Source: Chthonomonadales bacterium (GTDB lineage: Bacteria; Armatimonadota; Chthonomonadetes; Chthonomonadales; CAJBBX01). Taken from it: a stretch of DNA of 64,000 nucleotides. Below the pieces are notes generated by a model. The model saw only the letters and a list, made by a program, of their open reading frames with translations. It had not been told where the DNA came from and did no database searches. This document shows, in pieces, positions 36,645 through 63,586 of this stretch. The position numbers and the translations under genes are program-made. The DNA lies in NCBI GenBank assembly GCA_013360745.1, contig JABWBA010000008.1, positions 1-64,000 on the forward strand, read 5' to 3'. The first letter of the stretch is position 1, and each line of letters begins with the position of its first letter.

Positions 36645-36673
36645 ATTATAGCACCGGCGCCATGAACCTAGAA
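36645..36673 (-). promoter_or_regulatory. Internal promoter of the skp-lpx segment
   Basis: On the minus strand TTCTAG (36673-36668), a 17-base spacer, then TATAAT (36650-36645) with the extended -10 TGC directly before it. The -35 is weak, but a perfect extended -10 usually compensates. Its TAG is the bamA stop codon. Transcription would begin near 36638, 25 bases before skp. Confidence 0.7.
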
Positions 36674-38500
36674 CACATGCCCGATGCTGAAATGGGTGCG
36701 AGCCCCCTCGCTGCCGAAGCCCTGGTCGATCCGGATCGGGCCGATAGGCGTCACTACGCGCAGACCAAGGCCGAAGCCAACGGCAAGGTTGAAACCGTCA
36801 TGCTGGACAAGGTTTGAAAATCGCACGCCGGAGTACGGACCGCCCCACGCATCACCAGCGTCGAGGAAGAGCACACCCGTGAGGCTCTGAGCCAGCGGAG
36901 CGCGCAACTCGGCGGAAGCCAGGATCATCTGCTTGCCCCAGAAACGATCTTCTCTGTATCCCCGCAGCGTCTCTGCGCCGCCGACGAAGAACTGCTCGAA
37001 GAATGGGGCCGTACCCCCGACTATTCCTCCTGAGAGGCGGAAGGCCAGTACATTCCGACGGTCTTTGGCGTTTTTCCTTGGGCCGCCCAGGCTCAGGTAT
37101 CGGCGGGCATCAACCTGGAGTTTCTGGAAGTTCACGGTTCCAGTGACCGGGCTCGAGCCGCTCCCGGCCACAACGGGCTTCAGATCGGCCATCCCAATAT
37201 CCAGGCTATAGACCTCGAAGCCGCCGGAGCTCGGATCAAGGTCCAGATCTCTCGTATTATGGGTCACACGGCCGCTAGCGACCATGATCGGCCCCTTTTG
37301 CAGGGCTGCGGCGTCGGAAGGACTCAGATTCAGGGTCGGAAGGTTCACATCGTCGAATCTCAGGCCGATCGAACCTCGATAGACATCGCGGAACGGGCGG
37401 CTAAGCGTGATCTGAGCGCCACGGTGCATTTCGTAATAATCGTCACGGCCTCCGGTTGGCGTACCACCTGTACCTGACAGGCTCTGGGCGAATCGGTAGA
37501 CCGTCTTGTCGTAGATACTCGCCGAAAGGGATGTGTTCCGGCTATCGAGCCATGGCTCGGTAAATCCGAGCTCGAAGCTGTTCCGGTTGGCGAGGCCGCC
37601 AGTGTCCCAGCGAAGGCTGATTCCCTGCCCCCGGCCCATCAAGTTGCTCTCGACGATCTCGGCCCCACCGACGAGACTGTTCCGGCTGCTATAGCCGAGG
37701 AAGACGGATACGTTGCCGGTCCGTTTTTCCTCTAGATTGAGCGTAATGTCAACCAGGCCCGGCGTCTTGGGCACGATCGCCGGGGAAACGTCACCGAAGA
37801 GATTCGTGTTGAAGATGCGATAATAGTCGCGCTCAAAGACCGTAGCGTTATAGTACTCCCCCTTTCGCAGGCGCATCTCCCGGGTTACGACCCACGGCCG
37901 TGTCTTGTGGAGGCCGGTGATCTTCACTTCGTCTACCTTGGCCACCACAATCGGAATCTCAAGGATGCCGTTGGGCATCGAGAGATCGCCCGAGACTATT
38001 GCTAGATAGCCTTTAGATCGATAGTACTCCTGGATGGCTGTCGCATCGGCCCGTAGAATCGCGAGGTTGAGGACCAGTCCTTCTTTCGTCTGCATCAAAT
38101 CTCGGATCACTTTGGCTGGGACCGGACCCGTACCGGTGATATTGATCCCTTTGACGATGTCGTTCTCTTCGACTTCTATCGTCACCTCAGCGCCAGCCGC
38201 TGTTACGACCGCGACGATCTTGACAGCCTCCTCGGGATCATCGACACGGTTGGCCCCAAAGAGCTGGGTCGCCAGCAACCTGCGCTTAGCCTCATCGAGT
38301 TTCTGCTGGTTAACCGTCTCTCCGACTTTGAGACCCGAAGACGCAATAACCGTTTCGGAGTTCAGGTTGGTGTTACCCTTCACCGTGATCGCGGCGATGA
38401 CCGGATCTGCTCCCTGTCCCAGGGCCGCCGAGGCCGTCCAACCGATCGCCGCCATCACGCCAAGAATCGTGATCCCCATCCTGGGCAGTTGATATTTCAT
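36668..38500 (-). CDS. bamA: Outer-membrane protein assembly factor BamA
   Basis: A 610-residue Omp85 protein that inserts beta-barrel proteins into the outer membrane. It has a signal peptide (1-29, ending near ALGQG) and about three POTRA domains (about 30-265), fewer than the five of E. coli, as seen in some deep-branching diderms. A C-terminal 16-strand barrel follows, with ETLRGYREDRF in place of the VRGF loop-6 motif and a terminal phenylalanine (SIGHVF), the usual outer-membrane signal. The frame is open to 38752, but the ATG at 38500 with AGGAGGAG upstream starts the signal peptide. Confidence 0.93.
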   Translation of the reverse strand: MKYQLPRMGITILGVMAAIGWTASAALGQGADPVIAAITVKGNTNLNSETVIASSGLKVGETVNQQKLDEAKRRLLATQLFGANRVDDPEEAVKIVAVVTAAGAEVTIEVEENDIVKGINITGTGPVPAKVIRDLMQTKEGLVLNLAILRADATAIQEYYRSKGYLAIVSGDLSMPNGILEIPIVVAKVDEVKITGLHKTRPWVVTREMRLRKGEYYNATVFERDYYRIFNTNLFGDVSPAIVPKTPGLVDITLNLEEKRTGNVSVFLGYSSRNSLVGGAEIVESNLMGRGQGISLRWDTGGLANRNSFELGFTEPWLDSRNTSLSASIYDKTVYRFAQSLSGTGGTPTGGRDDYYEMHRGAQITLSRPFRDVYRGSIGLRFDDVNLPTLNLSPSDAAALQKGPIMVASGRVTHNTRDLDLDPSSGGFEVYSLDIGMADLKPVVAGSGSSPVTGTVNFQKLQVDARRYLSLGGPRKNAKDRRNVLAFRLSGGIVGGTAPFFEQFFVGGAETLRGYREDRFWGKQMILASAELRAPLAQSLTGVLFLDAGDAWGGPYSGVRFSNLVQHDGFNLAVGFGLGLRVVTPIGPIRIDQGFGSEGARTHFSIGHVF

Positions 38501-38552
38501 CAAGTAGAGCGCTCCTCCTACCGTGTTCACCCGTAACTCCTCGGATCTACGG

Positions 38553-39134
38553 TTAGTCATGATGTCCGCTGTAATACGGCCCGAGCCGGCGCCTGAGCAT
38601 CGCTCGAGCCCGTGACAATCGGGTCTTAACATTGTCCAGCGATATCCCCGTCGCGTCAGCAATCTCATTGTACGACAAGTCATGGAGTTCCCGAAGGACG
38701 ACCACCTCCCGGTAGTCGGGAGGGAGCGCCTCGATCGCCGCCATGATCTCATCCTTCAGCTCCGTCCGCTCTGCCAGCGTATGCGGAGCCTTTGTTTCAT
38801 CGGGTATCTCGCGCCCTCCAGCTCCGGCCTCGGCCCCGGGCGGAGGTTCATCCAGTGATACCGTCCGACCTATATCGGGCCTGCGGCGCCGTCGGAGGCG
38901 ATTTCGGCTCTGATTCAGCGCGATCTGATACAGCCATGTATAAACGTTCGCATCACCACGGAACTTGTGATAACTGCGATACGCGTTGATAAAGGTCTCC
39001 TGCGTAACATCCGCAGCCTCGTCATAATCGCCGAGTATCCGGTAGATGACGTTGAAGATCGGCTTTTCGTACCGAGCCACCAGGGCATCGAAGGTTCGAG
39101 GCGCATCGCTATCATCGAGCGGCCGACTAGGCAT
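38553..39134 (-). CDS. ECF sigma factor (RpoE/SigW type)
   Basis: A 193-residue two-domain extracytoplasmic-function sigma factor. Region 2 has DEAADVTQETFINAYRSY, and region 4 has LPPDYREVVVLRELHDLSY with a helix-turn-helix (YNEIADATGISLDNVKTRL). An acidic linker joins them. It sits between tamB and bamA, so control of outer-membrane assembly genes is a reasonable inference. No anti-sigma factor gene is adjacent, which is unusual for this group. I found no convincing ECF-type promoter in the gaps on either side. Confidence 0.88.
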   Translation of the reverse strand: MPSRPLDDSDAPRTFDALVARYEKPIFNVIYRILGDYDEAADVTQETFINAYRSYHKFRGDANVYTWLYQIALNQSRNRLRRRRRPDIGRTVSLDEPPPGAEAGAGGREIPDETKAPHTLAERTELKDEIMAAIEALPPDYREVVVLRELHDLSYNEIADATGISLDNVKTRLSRARAMLRRRLGPYYSGHHD

Positions 39135-39286
39135 CGATCCGTCCGCTTACCCCGAACCCCGACGGCAAACGGACTCGTGTGCCGACTAAGTGATCCCTGA
39201 CAGCGGTCTCCCTGGGCTCTACGAGGAGATAGCGACGCCAGGGCAGCGCCGTCATTCGGAAGCTCTTGATGGACGCACCCATGCAT

Positions 39287-42200
39287 TCAGAAACTATAGA
39301 CTCCTTCGAGCAGATATGCGTTCGCCTGTCGATCATCCAGACTCCAGGATAGGCGAAACCCGCTGCTCAGCCGCGCGCTGAGTCGGAACTCCCACTCACC
39401 CTGCTCTGCCATCATTTTATCGGCGCCCGATATCCTCCGCCAATAGCTCGCTTCGAACGGACCTATGAGGTTACGGGAGAGTCGCAGTACGAACGCTCCC
39501 GCGCGACTGTAGTCCATCGAGAACTCATCGAGCCCCAGTGATCTGCCCAACCCCAACCGATCCATCACATCCGGCAGCAGAGCTCCGCCAAGGTAGTCCA
39601 TCGCCTGTCCGATCAGGGCCGTTCCCGTATCTCCTCGTGGATTGAACACGGCTTCGATTGCAGATTGGCCGCCGAGAAGCGCGGTGACTTTTTGGGCAAG
39701 TCCCGCCTGGCTGAGGGCAAGATCCGGTGGATCGGCGCGGAAGCTGAGACGCAGACGGCTGTCCGTGCTGTTCTCTCCGGATGTATCGGCGGTGAGCAGA
39801 GGGCCTTGTGCATCGACGGTCACCCTGTATCGTCTCGTAGCTCCGGTAACGGACCGAGCCGTCATTCGTGCTGATGCCCTCAAATCGACGGCAACCTCCA
39901 GCCCTGCAGCCGCAGGGCTGGCGATCCCCGCCGCCGGATATCTCAGGTCAACCCTCCCGCCAGGGGCGATCGTGAACCGGGCCGTCGGAAATGAGAGTGT
40001 ACCCGCGCTGATGTAGTTCGATCCGGTCAGTCGCGGCTGGCTTAACGAGCCCGTTAGCCGGATCGGGGCGCCGCTTCTAGTCGCCATTGTGGCGTCGAGC
40101 CTGCTGTTGGTTACGCGTACATTGGGTCCGACGTTTGCCGAAAGATCGAAGGTCGGATCGATGATGCCTGGCCCGAAGGAACGCTGGAGCAAGGCTTCGG
40201 TTGCCGGCATCCGAACGGTGGTATCCCGTAACGCCACGGTACCGGCGATGTGGGGCGACAGGACGGCTCCCGTTATGGAGAGATCAACGCCGTTGACGCC
40301 GGGTCCTCCGCTGAGCATGCCGACTAATCGGCCGGTGGCGAAACCGGGGATGGGGGCCTCATCGAAGGTGAGGCTATTCGCGGTGATGCGCAGACCGTCC
40401 GAGTCCTCGCCAGTCTGAACGATCGGCAACGAACCGATGACATAGATACCACCGCTTGGTATTACGGTATCACCGTCGGCCCGTATCAGCTGGGCCATCG
40501 GTGCGTCGGAACTGGACGGTTTCAGGCCGACCTTCCCGTCCTGGATGGTGGCAACCATGTCTACATTACCGAGCCCGGTACGTAAACGACCGAATCGCAC
40601 ACGATCGGCGACGAGTCGGAGCTGTCCGTGAACGTCAATCGCCTTTGGATCGTCAAGTTCACCGGTGGCCAGCAGCCGGTAAGCATCGAGCGATCCGCTG
40701 ATCGTTACCTGCCCACCGGCCTTTCCGGTCGCAACCATACCGGACTGCGGCGCCAACGCTGTAATCGTCTCCAGCGACTGCTCAGGCAACCGGAGTTCGA
40801 TCTCAGCCCTCGCGTTCTCGGGTATATAGGGAGCCTCCCAGTGGAAGGGCATCGTCCCGTTGGCGTGTAACTCAACCGGCGTCCCTACGTAGGACGCACC
40901 AGTCCGCGATGCAATCGTCACAGCCACATCCGGAATCCGCAACTCCCCTTCCATGATGGTTGCCCCGATCACGCGAATACCCGGTAAGACGAAGGCGGGA
41001 CCCGAACCCGCGCCCGTATCTTGCTGCTCGAGCAGCACATCGCGAGCAGATGCATCAAGCCTAATGATCGGAGCCTCGGGCGATCCGCTAATCTCGGCAT
41101 TGACGGAATCGATGGCCCCCTTTAGCGCCCCGAAACGACTGGTTGGAGCCAACCACCGGGTTACCAGACCCAGATCGATTCCGCTAGCCGCAAGGGTCCC
41201 GCCGATCTCTTCGCCGTATTGGAGGAATCCCGAACCGTTGACCGCCATGTCGCCCGATATACCCGTAAGGTTCCGTATGTCAAGCCGATCCCTGGTCGAC
41301 GCAAGTTCCAGTGTAAACTGCTCCACGGGCACATCGCCAATCCTGAGGCTGGAGCTGGCTGCGTCGGCATAGACCTGGATATCCCGATCGCGGAGCTGCA
41401 TGGTATATCGAGACGCAAGCGACCCTTCGATAGGAGTTAACGCGGCCACGATCTGCCGGGACGGATCGGACGTGCCGCCTCGACGTGCGATCGGCATGCG
41501 TGACAAGGCGCGACGGATCGCACCGATCGACACATCGTCTGCGGTCCCGGACAGTGTTCCCTGGCGAGTATCAATATCGTATGTGAGATTCTCAAGCGCA
41601 AGGCGACCCGTTGCGCCCTCGATCCGGAACCGCGATCCCGCCTCGACGCTCTCCCCACCCGTGATGCGGTGTCCATCCAATCTCAGTCCTAGCTGTAGGG
41701 AACCAAGAGGTTCGTCGTTCAGGGTCAGCTCCGTCGTGTTCACGGCGGCAGAACCACGAAGCGTTGGCGCCTCTCCTACGACCACTCGTCCTTCGGTTTC
41801 GATATCGACTGCCACCGAACCTGCAACATCGGCGTAATCCTTCCACAGCGAACCCAGCGGCTCCAGCGGCACTCCGGCAGCTCTGACCGACAGCCTCGTC
41901 TGTCCATCGAATGAGTACGCGCCGTGTACCCGAACCTCGCCACCATAGAGATCGGCGCTCGCATCGGAGAGCTCGATGCCGTAGATGCCGTCCGATGGTT
42001 TCGCGTTCGCCGATGCGCGCACCGCAGAGAGATGGAGTTCGTCCAACCACAGGTCGTCGCAGCGAGCGTCGATATCAGCGATCGAAGGCGAAGATGCAGG
42101 ACCGTTGACGAGGGCCGAGGCCGAAGCCAATCCGATCACATCGCTCTGAAGGTCCAGCCGCCGCGCTAGCAGACCCAGCTCGAGTTGCTTCGCATCGGCG

Positions 42201-44344
42201 GATAGAGTCAGCCACGGACGGTCAAAGGGACGACGCAGAAGACCGTGCGCCGTAAGAACACTGGGCCAACGCACCACCTCCGCGTCGACCGCGATCGAAC
42301 GGGGCTGGCCCTGCACAAAGGCGGTCGCGTAGTCGACGTCCCAATCTTCATACTTCAGGCCATACCCATACAGAACGCCTTCCAGGGTCGGCGAGCTCCA
42401 ATCTCCGGAAATGCGCCCATCGCGAAGGTCAATGATTCCGGAGAGATCCTCGCGGTCCGGGCGGATGCTTAAAGCAGCTAGCCGCTGTAGCGGCAATCCG
42501 TCCGCCTCCAACCGAATATCCACACTGCCGCGACGAAGATCGACGGCGCCCTGTGCCACACAGACCGCATCGCCGTCCAGAAGGAGCGCGCGGTCGACCG
42601 TGAGCGCCGCACCGTCGAGTTGCGCTCGCACCTCCAATCGATCTGCCTCAATATTGTCGTATTTTGGCTTATATACTTGTACTATAAGATCGCCGCGTTG
42701 TGACGAAGGATCGCGGCTCATCCGTAGCCGCGCATCGGCCGACAGGCGTCCAGATACCTCGGCGCCGCCGGCAGCTGGCGCCATCAGGCCGGTATCGCGA
42801 AGGATTCCGTGCATTTCCGCAACCCGGACGCCACGCGCCTGCAGTACCCCATCGAACCTGCGATCGGCTGCCGTGTGATAGGCGCCATTCACATAGACCG
42901 TCCCGCCAGCGACAACGGCATCGCCCTGCAGGTAGGCCCGATCGCCGATCAGACGTCCCGCCAGGCGGACGCGCTGGAACTCGGCGCCGCGCATCGCGAT
43001 GCTCGGTGTTCGCCCAACAAACTGGACACGGGGTGCATCGACTGTGCCGGTTAGGTCCGCGCGGATCAACGCGGGCTCGACGACACGCAATCCGTTCACG
43101 AGTTGGCCGCGTCCTCTCAGCTCGACCGTTCCGGATAATGCAACCCTGTTGCGGACCTTGCGGACGGTGATCTGGCCAGCGGCGCGACCGTCCATCTCCA
43201 CCAATACGGCCCGTATCCGATCCGCTACGGTACGGGGCGCTGCACGATCGAGGTCCCTGAGGCGGGCTCCCGATGTCGACAATGCGATTGCGTACCCGGA
43301 GTCCTTGCCGGCCCTCCATTGACCCCGCAGCCGTATCGGAACGCGGCCGACCTCACCCTCTGCAGCATAGACAACCCGCTCGTCAGCGATCTGAACGGTT
43401 ACGCGCCTCGCCAGCGCCGGTTGTGGAGACCATGGAATACGTCCTCGCACATTTTGGATCTCGGCTTCCGCTGACCAACGCGATCGCCGCAATGCAGTCG
43501 CTCGATCGTTGAAATCCCACGCGAGCATCCCTGTGCCGCTGATCTGACCCGACCTGATCCGAACGCCGTTCGGCGACAACACTCTGTTGATCCACATTGG
43601 AAGGGTCGCGTCTTTTAGTGTCGCACCTAAGGTGAGATATGCAGGAGAGCTCTCCCAGCGCCCATAGACCGACACACGTCCACGGTCCGGGTCGCCGAAC
43701 GCTCCCGAGCCGATCCAGGAGATATCGCCTCGATTCTCGAACTGGATGCGTGCGGTGAGATCTCGGAGCTGGGTTTGTATGGGCGGCTCGTCGCTACGAC
43801 GCCCCCGAAGAAGAGCGTGGTCCGCGTAACGGATCGCTCCATCATCGAGCGACAACGACCCGATCCATCGACGGCCGGGCGGCCCTTCGGACTTCGGCAG
43901 CATCTTGACCCAGTTCAGCGTACCATCCGGCTCGCGTATCAGGGTTCCCCGAAGACCGGTGATCCGAACGTTCGATAACAAAGGCAAATCATCGCGCCCC
44001 CATCGATTCAGAATCCCGGAATCGAAGGGCGCTTCGATACGCTTCGCCGAAAGTACCTTCGATCGATCCTCCTGCGCCGCGTAGGGCACGGTCTCGATGG
44101 TAACCGCTGATAGCGAGATGCCGGTTGATCGGATCGTACAGTCCCCGATAGAGACCGAAGCGCGTAAATACCGTGAGGCCTCGGTCGACAGGACACGCCC
44201 CAGCAGAGCCTCAGAAGCGTTCCAGTACCGTCGAACTGCCGCCGTACCGATCATCAGGATCATCGCGACCGGCAGCAGATGCAGCGCCCAGATAACCAGA
44301 TGCGAGGGGATCGTTGAGGATCTCGAAATCACGCGTCTGCTCAT
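39287..44344 (-). CDS. tamB: TamB-like translocation and assembly module protein
   Basis: A 1685-residue AsmA/TamB-superfamily protein. An N-terminal membrane helix (about 14-40) anchors it in the inner membrane. A very long stretch of repeating beta-strand segments follows, with the DUF490 (TamB C-terminal) domain at about 1330-1685 (LTGSLSQPRLTGSNYISAG, then LRLSFRADPPDLALSQAGL). It ends in phenylalanine (LEGVYSF). TamB-like proteins form hydrophobic grooves that bridge the envelope and are linked to outer-membrane protein assembly and lipid transport. It lies upstream of the ECF sigma factor and bamA, matching tamB-bamA clusters of other diderms, and follows lipA by 35 bases. Confidence 0.9.
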   Translation of the reverse strand: MSRRVISRSSTIPSHLVIWALHLLPVAMILMIGTAAVRRYWNASEALLGRVLSTEASRYLRASVSIGDCTIRSTGISLSAVTIETVPYAAQEDRSKVLSAKRIEAPFDSGILNRWGRDDLPLLSNVRITGLRGTLIREPDGTLNWVKMLPKSEGPPGRRWIGSLSLDDGAIRYADHALLRGRRSDEPPIQTQLRDLTARIQFENRGDISWIGSGAFGDPDRGRVSVYGRWESSPAYLTLGATLKDATLPMWINRVLSPNGVRIRSGQISGTGMLAWDFNDRATALRRSRWSAEAEIQNVRGRIPWSPQPALARRVTVQIADERVVYAAEGEVGRVPIRLRGQWRAGKDSGYAIALSTSGARLRDLDRAAPRTVADRIRAVLVEMDGRAAGQITVRKVRNRVALSGTVELRGRGQLVNGLRVVEPALIRADLTGTVDAPRVQFVGRTPSIAMRGAEFQRVRLAGRLIGDRAYLQGDAVVAGGTVYVNGAYHTAADRRFDGVLQARGVRVAEMHGILRDTGLMAPAAGGAEVSGRLSADARLRMSRDPSSQRGDLIVQVYKPKYDNIEADRLEVRAQLDGAALTVDRALLLDGDAVCVAQGAVDLRRGSVDIRLEADGLPLQRLAALSIRPDREDLSGIIDLRDGRISGDWSSPTLEGVLYGYGLKYEDWDVDYATAFVQGQPRSIAVDAEVVRWPSVLTAHGLLRRPFDRPWLTLSADAKQLELGLLARRLDLQSDVIGLASASALVNGPASSPSIADIDARCDDLWLDELHLSAVRASANAKPSDGIYGIELSDASADLYGGEVRVHGAYSFDGQTRLSVRAAGVPLEPLGSLWKDYADVAGSVAVDIETEGRVVVGEAPTLRGSAAVNTTELTLNDEPLGSLQLGLRLDGHRITGGESVEAGSRFRIEGATGRLALENLTYDIDTRQGTLSGTADDVSIGAIRRALSRMPIARRGGTSDPSRQIVAALTPIEGSLASRYTMQLRDRDIQVYADAASSSLRIGDVPVEQFTLELASTRDRLDIRNLTGISGDMAVNGSGFLQYGEEIGGTLAASGIDLGLVTRWLAPTSRFGALKGAIDSVNAEISGSPEAPIIRLDASARDVLLEQQDTGAGSGPAFVLPGIRVIGATIMEGELRIPDVAVTIASRTGASYVGTPVELHANGTMPFHWEAPYIPENARAEIELRLPEQSLETITALAPQSGMVATGKAGGQVTISGSLDAYRLLATGELDDPKAIDVHGQLRLVADRVRFGRLRTGLGNVDMVATIQDGKVGLKPSSSDAPMAQLIRADGDTVIPSGGIYVIGSLPIVQTGEDSDGLRITANSLTFDEAPIPGFATGRLVGMLSGGPGVNGVDLSITGAVLSPHIAGTVALRDTTVRMPATEALLQRSFGPGIIDPTFDLSANVGPNVRVTNSRLDATMATRSGAPIRLTGSLSQPRLTGSNYISAGTLSFPTARFTIAPGGRVDLRYPAAGIASPAAAGLEVAVDLRASARMTARSVTGATRRYRVTVDAQGPLLTADTSGENSTDSRLRLSFRADPPDLALSQAGLAQKVTALLGGQSAIEAVFNPRGDTGTALIGQAMDYLGGALLPDVMDRLGLGRSLGLDEFSMDYSRAGAFVLRLSRNLIGPFEASYWRRISGADKMMAEQGEWEFRLSARLSSGFRLSWSLDDRQANAYLLEGVYSF

Positions 44345-58668: not shown

Positions 58669-58765
58669 CGTTCTTTCGAGACACCGCTTGGCCATACAAG
58701 GTCGATTCGTGACGCTGCCGAGTTGCTGATCGGTGTCCGCCAGCCGAGCCCGTGTAACCTACCGT

Positions 58766-59965
58766 ATGGACCTCCGGGATATCCACCTTCTCCTTGCCCG
58801 CTCCTTCGCCGAGAACCGTCTTCGCGCGGGCCTGACCGTGATCGGCGTTGTGATCGGCGTAGGCTCGGTCCTGCTGCTCGTCGCCATCGGCGCCGGCGTT
58901 CGCGAAGATATCACCCGACAGGTCGATAAGCTCGGTTCCAATGTCGCGATCATCGTACCCGGCAAGCTCTCCAGCACCGGTCAGCCCGATGGCATGTCGA
59001 TGCTGGGCATCTCCAGCCTGACGGTCAAAGATGTGGACGATCTGAGCAGGATCGCCGGTGTCCGCGCCGCGATACCTATCTCCTTCGTCACCGGGAGTGT
59101 CGAGACGGGAAACGAAAGCCACGCGGCCATGGTGCTCGGGGCGGATCACCGAATGGCGTCCGTCGGGACCAACCGGATCGCCCGCGGTCGTTTCTACCGG
59201 GGCACGGAGGACTCAGAGCGTGTCTGCGTGCTCGGCGCGGAGATCGGCGATGAGCTGGTCGGCAAGAAGCGACTGGCTGGACGAACGATCAGTGTTCGCG
59301 GGGTGCCGTTCCGGATCGTCGGCATCCTCGCCAGAGACGAAGAGAGCGCCTTCGCGCAGGTGAGTTTCGCGCGTGCGGTCTATATCCCGTGGCAAGCGTC
59401 TCGAACGGCGTTCAACGGCGCACAGATCAATAGAATCATCGTCCAGACGGATTATCAGACCGATCCCGACACGATAGCGGGCAGCCTTCAGCGCGTGCTG
59501 TTGCGGAACCACGGCCGCGAGGACTTCGGCGTACTTACCTACCGGAAGTTACTCGGCGCAATCTATCATGTGTTCAATATCGTGACGGCTCTGATCATCG
59601 GCATCTCCGCGATATCGCTCCTCGTCGCGGGCATCGGCATCATGAATGTGATGCTGGTTACGGTCACCGAGAGAACCCGCGAAATCGGCATCAGGATGGC
59701 GATGGGAGCTCGTCGATCGGATATCTTCTCGCAGTTTCTTGCCGAGGCGATCGCCCTTTCTCTCACCGGAGGCGTACTGGGCGTCGCTCTGGCATTCGGG
59801 GTCAGTCGTATCGTCGATGTGATGACCACGCTCCACCCGATCATCACACCCGGGGCCATTCTGCTCGCATTCGGGGTATGCGTCATCGTCGGCATCGTCT
59901 TCGGGACGGCTCCCGCCGTGCGGGCGTCACGCCTCAGCCCGGTCGACGCGCTCCGGTTCGAATAG
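58766..59965 (+). CDS. ABC transporter permease, MacB/FtsX type
   Basis: A 399-residue membrane protein with the MacB plan. The first membrane helix is at about 20-42 (RAGLTVIGVVIGVGSVLLL), then a periplasmic domain to about 275, then three helices in the FtsX-like C-terminal part containing GIGIMNVMLVTVTERTREIG and RIAMGA-like RMAMGARRSD. Such permeases work with a separate LolD/MacB-type ATPase and usually a membrane-fusion protein. Neither is adjacent: a tRNA lies upstream and the convergent fusion gene begins 3 bases downstream. The ATG at 58766 begins the family-like sequence but has no Shine-Dalgarno sequence; a GTG at 58733 is possible. Confidence 0.82.
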   Translation: MDLRDIHLLLARSFAENRLRAGLTVIGVVIGVGSVLLLVAIGAGVREDITRQVDKLGSNVAIIVPGKLSSTGQPDGMSMLGISSLTVKDVDDLSRIAGVRAAIPISFVTGSVETGNESHAAMVLGADHRMASVGTNRIARGRFYRGTEDSERVCVLGAEIGDELVGKKRLAGRTISVRGVPFRIVGILARDEESAFAQVSFARAVYIPWQASRTAFNGAQINRIIVQTDYQTDPDTIAGSLQRVLLRNHGREDFGVLTYRKLLGAIYHVFNIVTALIIGISAISLLVAGIGIMNVMLVTVTERTREIGIRMAMGARRSDIFSQFLAEAIALSLTGGVLGVALAFGVSRIVDVMTTLHPIITPGAILLAFGVCVIVGIVFGTAPAVRASRLSPVDALRFE

Positions 59966-59968
59966 CCG

Positions 59969-62900
59969 TCAGGGCTGCAGGGCGGCTTTGAGCGCGTCTC
60001 GGGCCGCCGGCGCCGCTATTCTGAAACCAGTATTCTCTCCCTCGACGACGACCCCAATGGCGTATTCCGGGAGCTCGTACGGCGCATACCCTACGAACCA
60101 CGCGTATCGTCGATCTGGGTTACGTGCAGATCGGATCACCGCAGTCCGGCCAGCTACCGTAATCGGCAGCGACTGAAAGATCTCCTCGAGCGGTCCATCA
60201 GTGATCGACTCCCGCAACGCGCGCCGTATCCGCTCGTACAGAGCCTTTCCTTCGTAGGTCAACCGTGCGTGGCCCGGTGGGAAGATAAAGCGTTCCGACG
60301 GGCGCCCGTTGCCAAACCGAAGCTCGGCAAGAAAGCTAGGATATTCCGGGGCAATATTGATCGATAGCTGGTAGATGAAATTCGTCATCTTCATCGGCGT
60401 GATGAGCGGAAACGACTCGCCGGTCGCGATATCCATCAGTCGTTCGGCCATTTCGTCGACCGTTGGCATAGCCTTCGGATTCGATATATCACTGAGGTAA
60501 TCCAGCAGCCTCTCAAGGTCCGTGTGTCGCAGCAACTCGGCAAAGTAGACATTACACCCGACCTTCAGAGCTCGCTCCAGGCCGATGCGTCCGTGGGGCG
60601 GATCTGAGGGATCATCTTCGACCGACGGCGCCGTATACGTCCGTCCCTGATAGGTCCAGCGCAACGGCCCGGTGGCGTGGCGGCAAATCGCTTCAAAGCT
60701 CGGAACTTCCTCGGGCAGATTGATCGCAATAGCGAACTTGAAGAGGGAGCCGGGTGGATATCGGACCGAGGTCGCTCGATCGACCACGGGCAGGCCATCC
60801 ATTCGGCGCGGATCGGTCGGGTCGGCCAGAACGGCTCTGTTTGGATCTGCGCTCGGCGTTGTGATCGCGGCGAGCGGATTCCCGGTGGCCGTATCCAGGA
60901 TCATCATGGCGGCAGGACGGACGTTCCGTTCGATGGTCACGTGCTTGAGCAATACCGCATACGCTTTTCGCTGCAGGTTGGCGTCCAGAGCCAGCACGAC
61001 ATCGCCGCCTTTGATCCGCCGGCCGGCGAATCGGGCTGGCAGGTTCCTTCGTCGATAGGCAGGCACAAGTTCCGCATAGCCGGAAAAGCCCCTCAGGTGC
61101 TCGTTGTATTCCCGTTCCATGCCGGAGATCGGCCCGATGTCGGCAAGCCAGCACCCGATCAAGGCCGCTGCGGCAGGACCCAGAGGATAGTAGCGGCCAG
61201 CACGATAGTATCGCTGAGCCAGGGCCGGATTGCCGGGCAAAGCGGCGCTGATTTCCCGAAGGCGAGACGTAGCGAGAACCTGATCTCCCAGCTCGTAAAT
61301 GGAACCCCGTTCGATGGTTGATGCGAAGCGGACGAGCCGAGGGTTGGCGATGGTTCGAACGGCCCGCCCCCCCTCGGTGAGGGTGAGAGTATGGCCTGCG
61401 TTGTCGTCGCCGCGCTCCGCCTGCAGCCACCACATCCGAGTTCCCAGCCCTCCGATCAGGAGCGCCACAACGGCGTAGGTTAGCGCTGCAACCCGCAGAC
61501 GGTAGCTTCGACGCTCGAACCCGCCAAGCCCCCGGTCTGCCGTCCGATCGAGACCGAGCGTCAGACCAATGGCGCTGAACCAGGCGATCTGCGCAACACG
61601 CGTGAAGTCCGCAAACGGGAGCGGGACAATGGCCTGAGGACCCACGCCCGCGACGCTGGCGCAGGCGAACGCCGTCCAGGCCGACAGGACACAACCAATC
61701 CCGATCAGGATCCATCGCGATCCGTCCGCGCTAGTCCGAACCGACAGCCGATGAACGCGCCAGATCAGCAGCGCGTACAAGAGCAGCGTCATCACAGATC
61801 CGATGACGCCGAGATCCTCGCCGATGGTCGCCAAGAGCCGGCTCTGCCCGACCTCACTGAGCCCGAGCCCGGCGCCCCAGAAGCCGCCAGAGCCGAACGC
61901 CCAGAAATCCTCTGCCAGCCGGTTCGGAGAACTGATGCCTCTGGACCACGGTGACTGGAAGGCCATGAGCGATGCTCGTCCATCCGGCATGAGGCCCGCT
62001 AGAAGGGCTACACCGATGAAGCTGAGGGCGCCGCCAAGCGCGGCCTTCCAGCCCATGCCCGTACCGAGCCAGATGAGGCACGCGCCAGACAGTCCCGTTA
62101 CCAAACCGATACCCGGATTTCTCGTGCAGACCACCGAGATCACGGCTAACGCGAGTGGGATCCAGAGCTCCGTCTCTCTGATCCCCACTCGCACCACTGT
62201 CCGCGGCGGTTGGGCCGTTGGATTCGCGCTATCCAACGCCGGTGGCCGCAACGATCGAAGATAGGGAACGAGCACGCCCAGCGCCGCGAACGGACCGAGC
62301 CATGACAATCCAGGCGCTCCAACCCGGCGTCCGCCGTCCAGAACGAGGGCCGCGACGGCCCATAGGAGGAATACACCGGGTCCTGTGAAGCGAACCAGAC
62401 GCACCAGGAAAGAGGGCATCGGATAGGTCGATCTGCGTCCCGGGATACGACTGAATACCAGCAACGAAAGAACGCCCAGCCCGACGCCCCACAGGAACGC
62501 ACCCGCTGTCGGGGCGTCCCGCAGCGGGTCACCCGCAGCGAGGCGGACAAGGAATCCGAACGTTGTTAGAAGCCAAACCAGCATCAGCAGAACGGGTCTG
62601 TCGGTCGCGTGTTGTGGCGCATACCGACAGGAAAGCCAGACGAACGCGAGGAACAGCAGCAGATAGAGCGCGTTATAGCCAAACGCTGTGCTCGGAGATC
62701 GTACGATCGCAATCTGGTGCAGGCGACGCACTCGATCGGCCGACAGTACCGGTATCCGTTCGATATCCGCAGTGCCCTGAAAGGTCCGATCGGCCTTCGA
62801 CTCACGCGCTTCGATGAGACGGCTGGCCAGCGCCAACGGAATATCGAGCCCGATTTCGAGCTCGCCTGGCTCTGCTCTCAATAGACTGTCCGGCTGTCTC

Positions 62901-63271
62901 CGAGTGCGAGCGATGATGTCATGAAATCGTTCGGACAGCACAGGAGTCGCTGCCACTCGCTCCAGAGACGGGTATCCGCCGAGCCGTTGACGCTCGAGGA
63001 CGAGGCGATCGGCCAGAGCCGGATCGATCCGGAGCGCCAGCGCGAGCTTATCGGGGTCGACACGATTCATGTTGATCGTGTCAGCGGGGACGGTTAGCGG
63101 GATTCGAGCGAGGGAAGCAAGGACAGCCCCAATGGCGGCTACGACAGCAACGAGCGCAAACGTCCGCGGAGCGCGTTTCCGCGCGCGAGCTGGGACATCC
63201 TGCGCATGATCCGTCACTGCCTCGGCCACAACTACGATTATACAACGGTGGCTATCAGGATGCCAATACAC
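59969..63271 (-). CDS. Three-part fusion: helix-hairpin-helix, SEDS (FtsW/RodA) and class B PBP domains
   Basis: An 1100-residue membrane protein. A membrane helix (about 38-58) is followed by two ComEA-like helix-hairpin-helix units (about 65-122 and 138-190; INMNRVDPDKLALAL). A SEDS domain with about ten helices follows (197-570; GSGGFWGAGLGLS and IGEDLGVIG). Then come a further membrane helix (592-612), a PBP dimerisation region (RGSIYELGDQVLATS) and a transpeptidase domain (about 765-1098). SxxK is intact (S842, K845). SxN is GCN (905-907) and KTG is RTA (1042-1044). The SEDS catalytic aspartate position holds serine (S477). The ATG at 63271 has AGGA upstream; GTG codons at 63229 and 63217 are alternatives. 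SEDS and PBP are usually separate proteins. Confidence 0.85.
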   Translation of the reverse strand: MYWHPDSHRCIIVVVAEAVTDHAQDVPARARKRAPRTFALVAVVAAIGAVLASLARIPLTVPADTINMNRVDPDKLALALRIDPALADRLVLERQRLGGYPSLERVAATPVLSERFHDIIARTRRQPDSLLRAEPGELEIGLDIPLALASRLIEARESKADRTFQGTADIERIPVLSADRVRRLHQIAIVRSPSTAFGYNALYLLLFLAFVWLSCRYAPQHATDRPVLLMLVWLLTTFGFLVRLAAGDPLRDAPTAGAFLWGVGLGVLSLLVFSRIPGRRSTYPMPSFLVRLVRFTGPGVFLLWAVAALVLDGGRRVGAPGLSWLGPFAALGVLVPYLRSLRPPALDSANPTAQPPRTVVRVGIRETELWIPLALAVISVVCTRNPGIGLVTGLSGACLIWLGTGMGWKAALGGALSFIGVALLAGLMPDGRASLMAFQSPWSRGISSPNRLAEDFWAFGSGGFWGAGLGLSEVGQSRLLATIGEDLGVIGSVMTLLLYALLIWRVHRLSVRTSADGSRWILIGIGCVLSAWTAFACASVAGVGPQAIVPLPFADFTRVAQIAWFSAIGLTLGLDRTADRGLGGFERRSYRLRVAALTYAVVALLIGGLGTRMWWLQAERGDDNAGHTLTLTEGGRAVRTIANPRLVRFASTIERGSIYELGDQVLATSRLREISAALPGNPALAQRYYRAGRYYPLGPAAAALIGCWLADIGPISGMEREYNEHLRGFSGYAELVPAYRRRNLPARFAGRRIKGGDVVLALDANLQRKAYAVLLKHVTIERNVRPAAMMILDTATGNPLAAITTPSADPNRAVLADPTDPRRMDGLPVVDRATSVRYPPGSLFKFAIAINLPEEVPSFEAICRHATGPLRWTYQGRTYTAPSVEDDPSDPPHGRIGLERALKVGCNVYFAELLRHTDLERLLDYLSDISNPKAMPTVDEMAERLMDIATGESFPLITPMKMTNFIYQLSINIAPEYPSFLAELRFGNGRPSERFIFPPGHARLTYEGKALYERIRRALRESITDGPLEEIFQSLPITVAGRTAVIRSARNPDRRYAWFVGYAPYELPEYAIGVVVEGENTGFRIAAPAARDALKAALQP
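63237..63266 (-). promoter_or_regulatory. Possible promoter near the start of the fusion gene
   Basis: Minus-strand TTGGCA (63266-63261), an 18-base spacer and TATAAT (63242-63237). It lies inside the longest reading frame, so it is either chance or evidence that translation begins at a GTG at 63229 or 63217. Confidence 0.35.
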
Positions 63272-63343: not shown

Positions 63344-63586
63344 CTAACCTCGATTCATCGTCACAGCCACGAGTATGCTGGCGACAAAGAAGCCGATGCT
63401 GATATATCGGGTCATCTCGTTCAGCCGGTCCTCGAATCCGGGCTTACCTTTGAAGGTACTCGTAGCCTTGCCGCCAATGGTTCCGCCCAGCCCTTCGCTC
63501 TTGGTCTGCTGAATCGCGACCACGAAGATAAGCCCGACGGCAAGCGCTACCTGAACCACACTAAGAATGATATGCAGAACCTGCAA
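63344..63586 (-). CDS. secG: Preprotein translocase subunit SecG
   Basis: An 80-residue protein with two membrane helices (about 4-25 and 59-77) joined by the glycine-rich cytoplasmic loop typical of SecG (SEGLGGTIGGKATSTFKGKP). It supports SecYEG-dependent export. It lies between tatA and the fusion gene on the same strand, with gaps of 50 and 72 bases. Confidence 0.93.
   Translation of the reverse strand: MQVLHIILSVVQVALAVGLIFVVAIQQTKSEGLGGTIGGKATSTFKGKPGFEDRLNEMTRYISIGFFVASILVAVTMNRG

Follow-up and report, generated by a model that had tools for sequence, protein, structure and literature searches.

A single-chain fusion of HhH, SEDS and class B penicillin-binding protein modules with eroded catalytic sites and a conserved pedestal in Chthonomonadales

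The window analyzed here, a 64,000-nucleotide stretch of a Chthonomonadales genome (assembly GCA_013360745.1, contig JABWBA010000008.1, positions 1 to 64,000), encodes a protein of 1100 residues that joins a helix-hairpin-helix (HhH) module, a SEDS domain and a class B penicillin-binding protein (bPBP) in one chain. The gene belongs, by orthology, to a family of one-chain synthases found across the phylum, and its product is now probably a non-catalytic scaffold, modulator or competitor acting via its pedestal and membrane core. The term pedestal refers to the domain of a bPBP that does not bind penicillin and links the protein to its SEDS partner and to regulators. Judged from alignments of its relatives, the fusion is phylum-wide and ancestrally intact, and the oddity of the window copy is a lineage-specific decay in which the pedestal was preserved.

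Results

The catalytic columns were assigned by alignment with 30–50 orthologues. The position of the SEDS catalytic Asp is occupied by S477 (61841..61843, minus strand, as for all features of this gene). The SxxK motif of the PBP part is intact as SLFK (residues 842–845; 60737..60748), SxN is replaced by GCN (residues 905–907; 60551..60559) and KTG by RTA (residues 1042–1044; 60140..60148). An earlier note on this DNA, made from the letters alone, had placed these motifs by eye at the same residues; the alignment agreed and restored no conserved Asp, S477 being in the Asp column. Other SEDS residues altered in the window copy are QPxE/K in extracellular loop (ECL) 2, D(L/M)G in ECL3, R434 and W438 in ECL4, and G548/G557 in ECL5.

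The Asp, SxxK, SxN and KTG were intact in all orthologues with data, including those of other phyla, except in five sequences, which belong to three genera. In the sister genus, g8, two species lost the SEDS Asp and carry GPFK for SxxK and KAA or KSA for KTG. The PBP nucleophile is gone in this genus, and the window copy retains S842, K845 and N907. In two species of genus g6 (L014 and L015), the SEDS Asp is kept, with NAFE or NAIE in place of SxxK, SCK or SCR in place of SxN, and KIA in place of KTG. The g6 copies therefore look, by their residues, like natural polymerase-only variants with a dead transpeptidase. The SEDS active site was probably lost, and erosion of the transpeptidase begun, in the common ancestor of the window genus and g8.

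Constraint was compared over 93 columns that are near-invariant in 37 intact orthologues; three more fall in gaps of the window sequence. The window copy keeps 18/36 of these residues in the SEDS domain, 15/16 in the linker and pedestal, and 24/38 in the transpeptidase domain. The corresponding values are 19–20/36, 16/16 and 22–23/38 in g8, and 32/36, 14–15/16 and 19–20/38 in g6. Fisher tests of the pedestal against the rest (p = 0.004 in the window, 0.0004 in g8) and of SEDS against transpeptidase in g6 (p = 0.0008) serve as guides, because the columns are partly dependent and the trio formed by the window and the two g8 species shares ancestry. Within this trio, identity is 34–45% across the entire chain and is highest in the pedestal, where 41% of columns are identical.

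All three species of the trio retain a full-length frame, the window being separated from the other two by about 2.6 substitutions per site. Random codons would produce about 32 stops; therefore, selection has maintained the frame. In the g6 pair, the ratio of nonsynonymous to synonymous substitution rates (dN/dS) is 0.23 for the dead transpeptidase and 0.14 for the SEDS domain, and intact pairs give 0.10–0.19. The open frames and the g6 dN/dS values thus indicate that the protein remains under selection, which is strongest on the pedestal and weakest on catalysis.

A protein search recovered single-ORF (open reading frame) orthologues of about 820–1260 amino acids, spanning both halves, from at least 44 of the 151 genomes searched in the phylum, which is probably Armatimonadota, and in many families. 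Orthology is supported by conserved synteny, since the order PfkB-TatA-SecG-fusion, on one strand, is shared by the window and six other genomes (G002, G004, G005, G007, G010 and G015). The window protein has the family's single ORF, domain order, SecG synteny and frame of two extra transmembrane helices, TM-A and TM-B. The HhH module is missing from the copies of family f6 (L034, L037 and relatives) and from L024. The f6 fusions also have a long stem branch (1.3), and in G081 (L053:1079-4048) the SEDS and PBP halves are two adjacent ORFs of 433 and 470 amino acids.

In the rpoB tree, the window groups with g8, followed by g7 and then by g5, g4 and g3, with g6 and family f2 outside. The PfkB-TatA-SecG block is intact in g7 and f2, and the fusion is absent beside it; complete genomes of both have two SEDS genes, not three. 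Intact genera separate g6 from the window genus (g1) and g8 in this tree, implying independent events. The fusion gene tree groups g6 with the trio (support 96/93), and two groupings taken from the species tree are mildly rejected by AU tests (p = 0.039 and 0.011). We nevertheless favor independent decay in g6 and the trio, as both branches are long and different residues were lost in each, although the gene tree gives no proof of this.

A single-sequence search of genome contigs returned no relative. The matches listed in a profile search of contigs were mostly two-gene RodA-PbpA pairs, together with at least eight single-ORF fusions from other phyla; they included no named relative in the phylum of the window, where close relatives were possibly masked. 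In eight single-ORF SEDS-PBP fusions of Lachnospiraceae and Acidobacteriota (L083, L084, L085, L099, L146, L076, L077 and L115), the catalytic residues are all intact.

The presence of an intact fusion tracks that of FhaA. Among genomes at least 90% complete, FhaA_N is present in 15 of the 16 whose fusion is intact, all but G003, and is missing from all nine whose fusion is degenerate or absent (Fisher p = 5e-6, for 25 genomes that amount to about three lineages in which a change took place). FhaA_N was not found in the source genome of the window, G000. In family f8 (L062:5805-13313 and L075:3112-10392), the fusion gene is followed by genes for FhaA (FhaA_N plus FHA), a PP2C phosphatase and a Ser/Thr kinase. 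In Actinobacteria, FhaA, PP2C and Ser/Thr kinase genes accompany RodA and PbpA (PMC6554272). The two-gene RodA-PbpA pairs that we found are in Clostridia and Actinobacteria, several with FHA, PP2C or kinase neighbors, and profile searches of the PDB ranked 4mnr and PBPA of Mycobacterium tuberculosis (3un7) first. The association is suggestive of a tie between the intact fusion and a wall pathway controlled by FHA proteins and kinases. It also suggests that decay followed the loss of FhaA control, or the reverse.

The fusion gene (59969..63271) has 1100 codons with a GTG start and no internal stops. The start codon is uncertain, and roughly the first 26 residues are of low confidence in the structure model. 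The ORF, Pfam, the orthologues and the model agree on a chain carrying HhH, SEDS and bPBP parts, as the earlier note had proposed. Pfam recognizes both wall-synthesis domains: PF01098 (SEDS) at 53.3 bits (cut-off 26.4; residues 373–574, a match limited to the C-terminal 60% of the profile), against 165.9–214.5 bits in orthologues with intact SEDS, and PF00905 (transpeptidase) at 54.1 bits (residues 788–1094). PBP_dimer reaches only 12.6 bits in the window protein, and PBP_dimer_2 ("PBP A dimerisation") is sub-threshold in orthologues. AlphaFold2 models built with 38 and 28 orthologues were of good confidence (pLDDT 84 and pTM 0.79; residues 1–630 separately, pTM 0.84). The predicted SEDS fold matches RodA/FtsW structures with TM-scores of 0.65–0.72, normalized by target (0.69–0.71 for 8tj3_B, 6pl5_A and 8bh1_A). 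For the predicted PBP part, TM-scores are about 0.73–0.77 to Pseudomonas aeruginosa PBP2 and M. tuberculosis PBPA.

The chain begins with TM-A (residues 26–56; 63104..63196), which is preceded by basic residues; the N terminus is thus probably cytoplasmic, and the HhH region should be extracytoplasmic. Alignment with the FtsW of the same genome places the canonical first SEDS helix at about residue 226, after TM-B (residues 193–217; 62621..62695), and therefore the tandem HhH region (residues 64–187; 62711..63082) lies between two extra helices. The SEDS domain (residues 224–577; 61541..62602), which retains its predicted fold, is followed by the PBP membrane anchor helix (residues 585–619; 61415..61519), the pedestal (residues 629–745; 61037..61387) and the transpeptidase domain (residues 746–1098; 59978..61036).

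HhH profiles fall below cut-off in the window protein (PF12836, HHH_3, 14.2 bits against 27; PF03934, 17.6 against 24.2), but PF12836 scores 27.5–47.6 bits, above cut-off, in five orthologues (L009, L012, L013, L023 and L032), and the model contains two helical repeats at residues 73–187. The HhH assignment of the earlier note therefore holds in the relatives and the model, but not by profile in the window copy. The idea that this module senses DNA is not supported: the G-h-G hairpin is replaced by an LxIDxxLA-like sequence, read as LRID and LDIP in the window, the orthologues shown in the alignment have no GIG-type hairpin in their first HhH, and some intact fusions (f6 and L024) do without the module.

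In addition to the fusion, the source genome (97% complete; 3.32 Mb in 127 contigs) encodes separate FtsW, RodA, FtsI, PBP2 and a PBP1A-like protein with their motifs present, as the earlier note had proposed to check; the Asp is kept in its FtsW (RQTDFLF) and RodA (NTDYVLA). Directly upstream of the fusion, on the same strand, is secG (63344..63586, minus), our synteny anchor. A MacB/FtsX-type permease gene (58733..59965, plus) is convergent with the fusion and occurs as its neighbor in G002, G007 and G010 as well. Elsewhere in the window (36668-44344), a BamA-like (POTRA-Omp85) gene adjoins that of a 1685-residue TamB-like protein; these two genes indicate a diderm envelope.

Discussion

Our results point to a wall synthase that has lost its active sites within one lineage and has kept the part through which a bPBP is coupled to other proteins. 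The earlier note had proposed an inactive or repurposed complex. This proposal is borne out in that motifs of the SEDS cavity have been lost, the transpeptidase has eroded and other synthases are present, but the fusion itself is not odd. Natural SEDS-PBP fusions have been noted before (PMC10449877, citing the Rhodococcus RHA1 genome), and hence the fusion alone is not new. Literature searches returned no paper on a HhH-SEDS-PBP protein, and none describing a phylum-wide HhH-SEDS-PbpA fusion that tracks FhaA.

The ancestral protein would have united the HhH module, a SEDS glycan polymerase and a PbpA-type bPBP in one chain. Its catalytic sites would have decayed in the ancestor of the trio, with conservation of the membrane core and, above all, of the pedestal. 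The present protein would fold as a SEDS-bPBP shell without catalysis, and its pedestal, transmembrane helices and HhH module may dock to RodA-PBP2, FtsW-FtsI or their activators. The g6-type protein would be a polymerase with a built-in activator. Since the window type has no live site in its own chain, except possibly a crippled transpeptidase, docking elsewhere would be the most economical use of its pedestal.

Several known properties of SEDS-bPBP pairs bear on this scheme. Replacement of the catalytic Asp by Ala abolishes the function of Escherichia coli FtsW, and the binding of FtsI and substrate remains (PMC8765783). In RodA-PBP2, the PBP activates its SEDS partner via conformational motion, and MreC binds the PBP2 pedestal (PMC10257715). 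Some bPBPs can serve as activators independently of their catalysis (Clostridioides difficile SpoVD and Bacillus subtilis PBP2b), and a bPBP whose catalysis is dead can support its SEDS partner (PMC12713402). A more specific proposal, which we put forward tentatively and hold at slightly below even chances, is that the window protein is a dedicated pseudo-synthase with both sites dead and its pedestal under selection, serving as a regulator or scaffold. It would have evolved from a fused synthase linked to FhaA and kinases, and g6 would represent a transpeptidase-dead state in which the fused PBP is purely an allosteric activator of a live SEDS domain.

Some observations weigh against a non-catalytic role under selection. 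S842, K845 and N907 are still in place, and the PBP could therefore be acylated. Newly conserved, clade-specific positions are few (54/1061) and form no strong cluster, and conservation of the pedestal may reflect folding alone. The trio fusion evolves at 4.2–5.1 times the rate of rpoB, and the median ratio among intact pairs is 1.85; therefore, constraint is relaxed. Clean gene loss in the next genus out, g7, also fits slow decay.

The most serious alternative, though an unlikely one in our judgment, is that the gene is a decaying relic: a third SEDS-bPBP synthase, dispensable after the loss of FhaA, caught at a late stage before the clean loss reached in g7 and f2. Clean loss of the gene from its syntenic position in these two groups, the raised substitution rate, the distribution of FhaA (0/9 degenerate or absent against 15/16 intact) and the full set of other synthases agree with it. 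However, three deeply diverged species keep a full-length frame and 34–45% identity over the entire chain, the pedestal is specifically spared, and even the dead transpeptidase of the g6 pair has a dN/dS of 0.23. A pure relic would not be expected to last so long.

It is improbable that the window protein is still an enzyme, using an alternative acidic SEDS residue and/or an SLFK and RTA transpeptidase of altered specificity, for example with reduced beta-lactam affinity. The retained S842, K845 and N907 and the retained predicted fold speak for this, but residues of ECL2, ECL3, ECL4 and ECL5 are altered besides the Asp, the Ala substitution in E. coli FtsW is inactivating (PMC8765783), and the sister genus has lost the PBP nucleophile (GPFK). 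The possibility that the fusion stems from misassembly, misbinning or a misread frame is refuted in practice even for a 127-contig assembly, because the ORF, domain order and neighbors recur in dozens of independent genomes and the Asp is also missing in the two g8 species.

The favored reading, a non-catalytic protein acting via its pedestal, places the window copy in a natural separation-of-function series within one SEDS-bPBP chain, made up of intact copies, the polymerase-only copies of g6, and the window and g8 copies, in which both halves are eroded. The separability of the structural role of a bPBP from its catalysis has so far been addressed mostly with engineered mutants, and the pattern of a kept pedestal and decayed sites makes the question directly testable. 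Furthermore, a phylum-wide HhH-SEDS-PbpA fusion that co-occurs with FhaA when intact extends the actinobacterial theme of wall control by RodA-PbpA-PstP-PknB to a diderm phylum.

The closest known system is the actinobacterial RodA-PbpA pair with fhaA/fhaB-pstP-pknA/pknB (M. tuberculosis PBPA, 3un7/3upo). It resembles the fusion in the PbpA-like PBP half and, in f8, in the FhaA, PP2C and Ser/Thr kinase genes alongside. In contrast, the fusion of this phylum is one chain with a HhH module and two extra transmembrane helices, and the window copy lacks some catalytic residues, belongs to a genome without FhaA and lies beside SecG. The natural fusions of Acidobacteriota and Lachnospiraceae likewise have SEDS followed by bPBP in a single ORF, but the at least eight identified here, compared over their SEDS and bPBP parts, keep their catalytic residues, unlike the window protein. 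E. coli RodA-PBP2 and P. aeruginosa FtsW-FtsI (8tj3 and 8bh1; also Thermus thermophilus 6pl5) share the SEDS fold and pedestal-coupled architecture; however, they are active, form separate chains and have no HhH. The HhH of ComEA and GspK (PF12836 and PF03934) shares the repeat pattern NxNxAxxxxLxxxLxIDxxLAxxIxxxR...GxF, whereas the module of the fusion has no DNA-binding GxG hairpin and sits in a membrane synthase.

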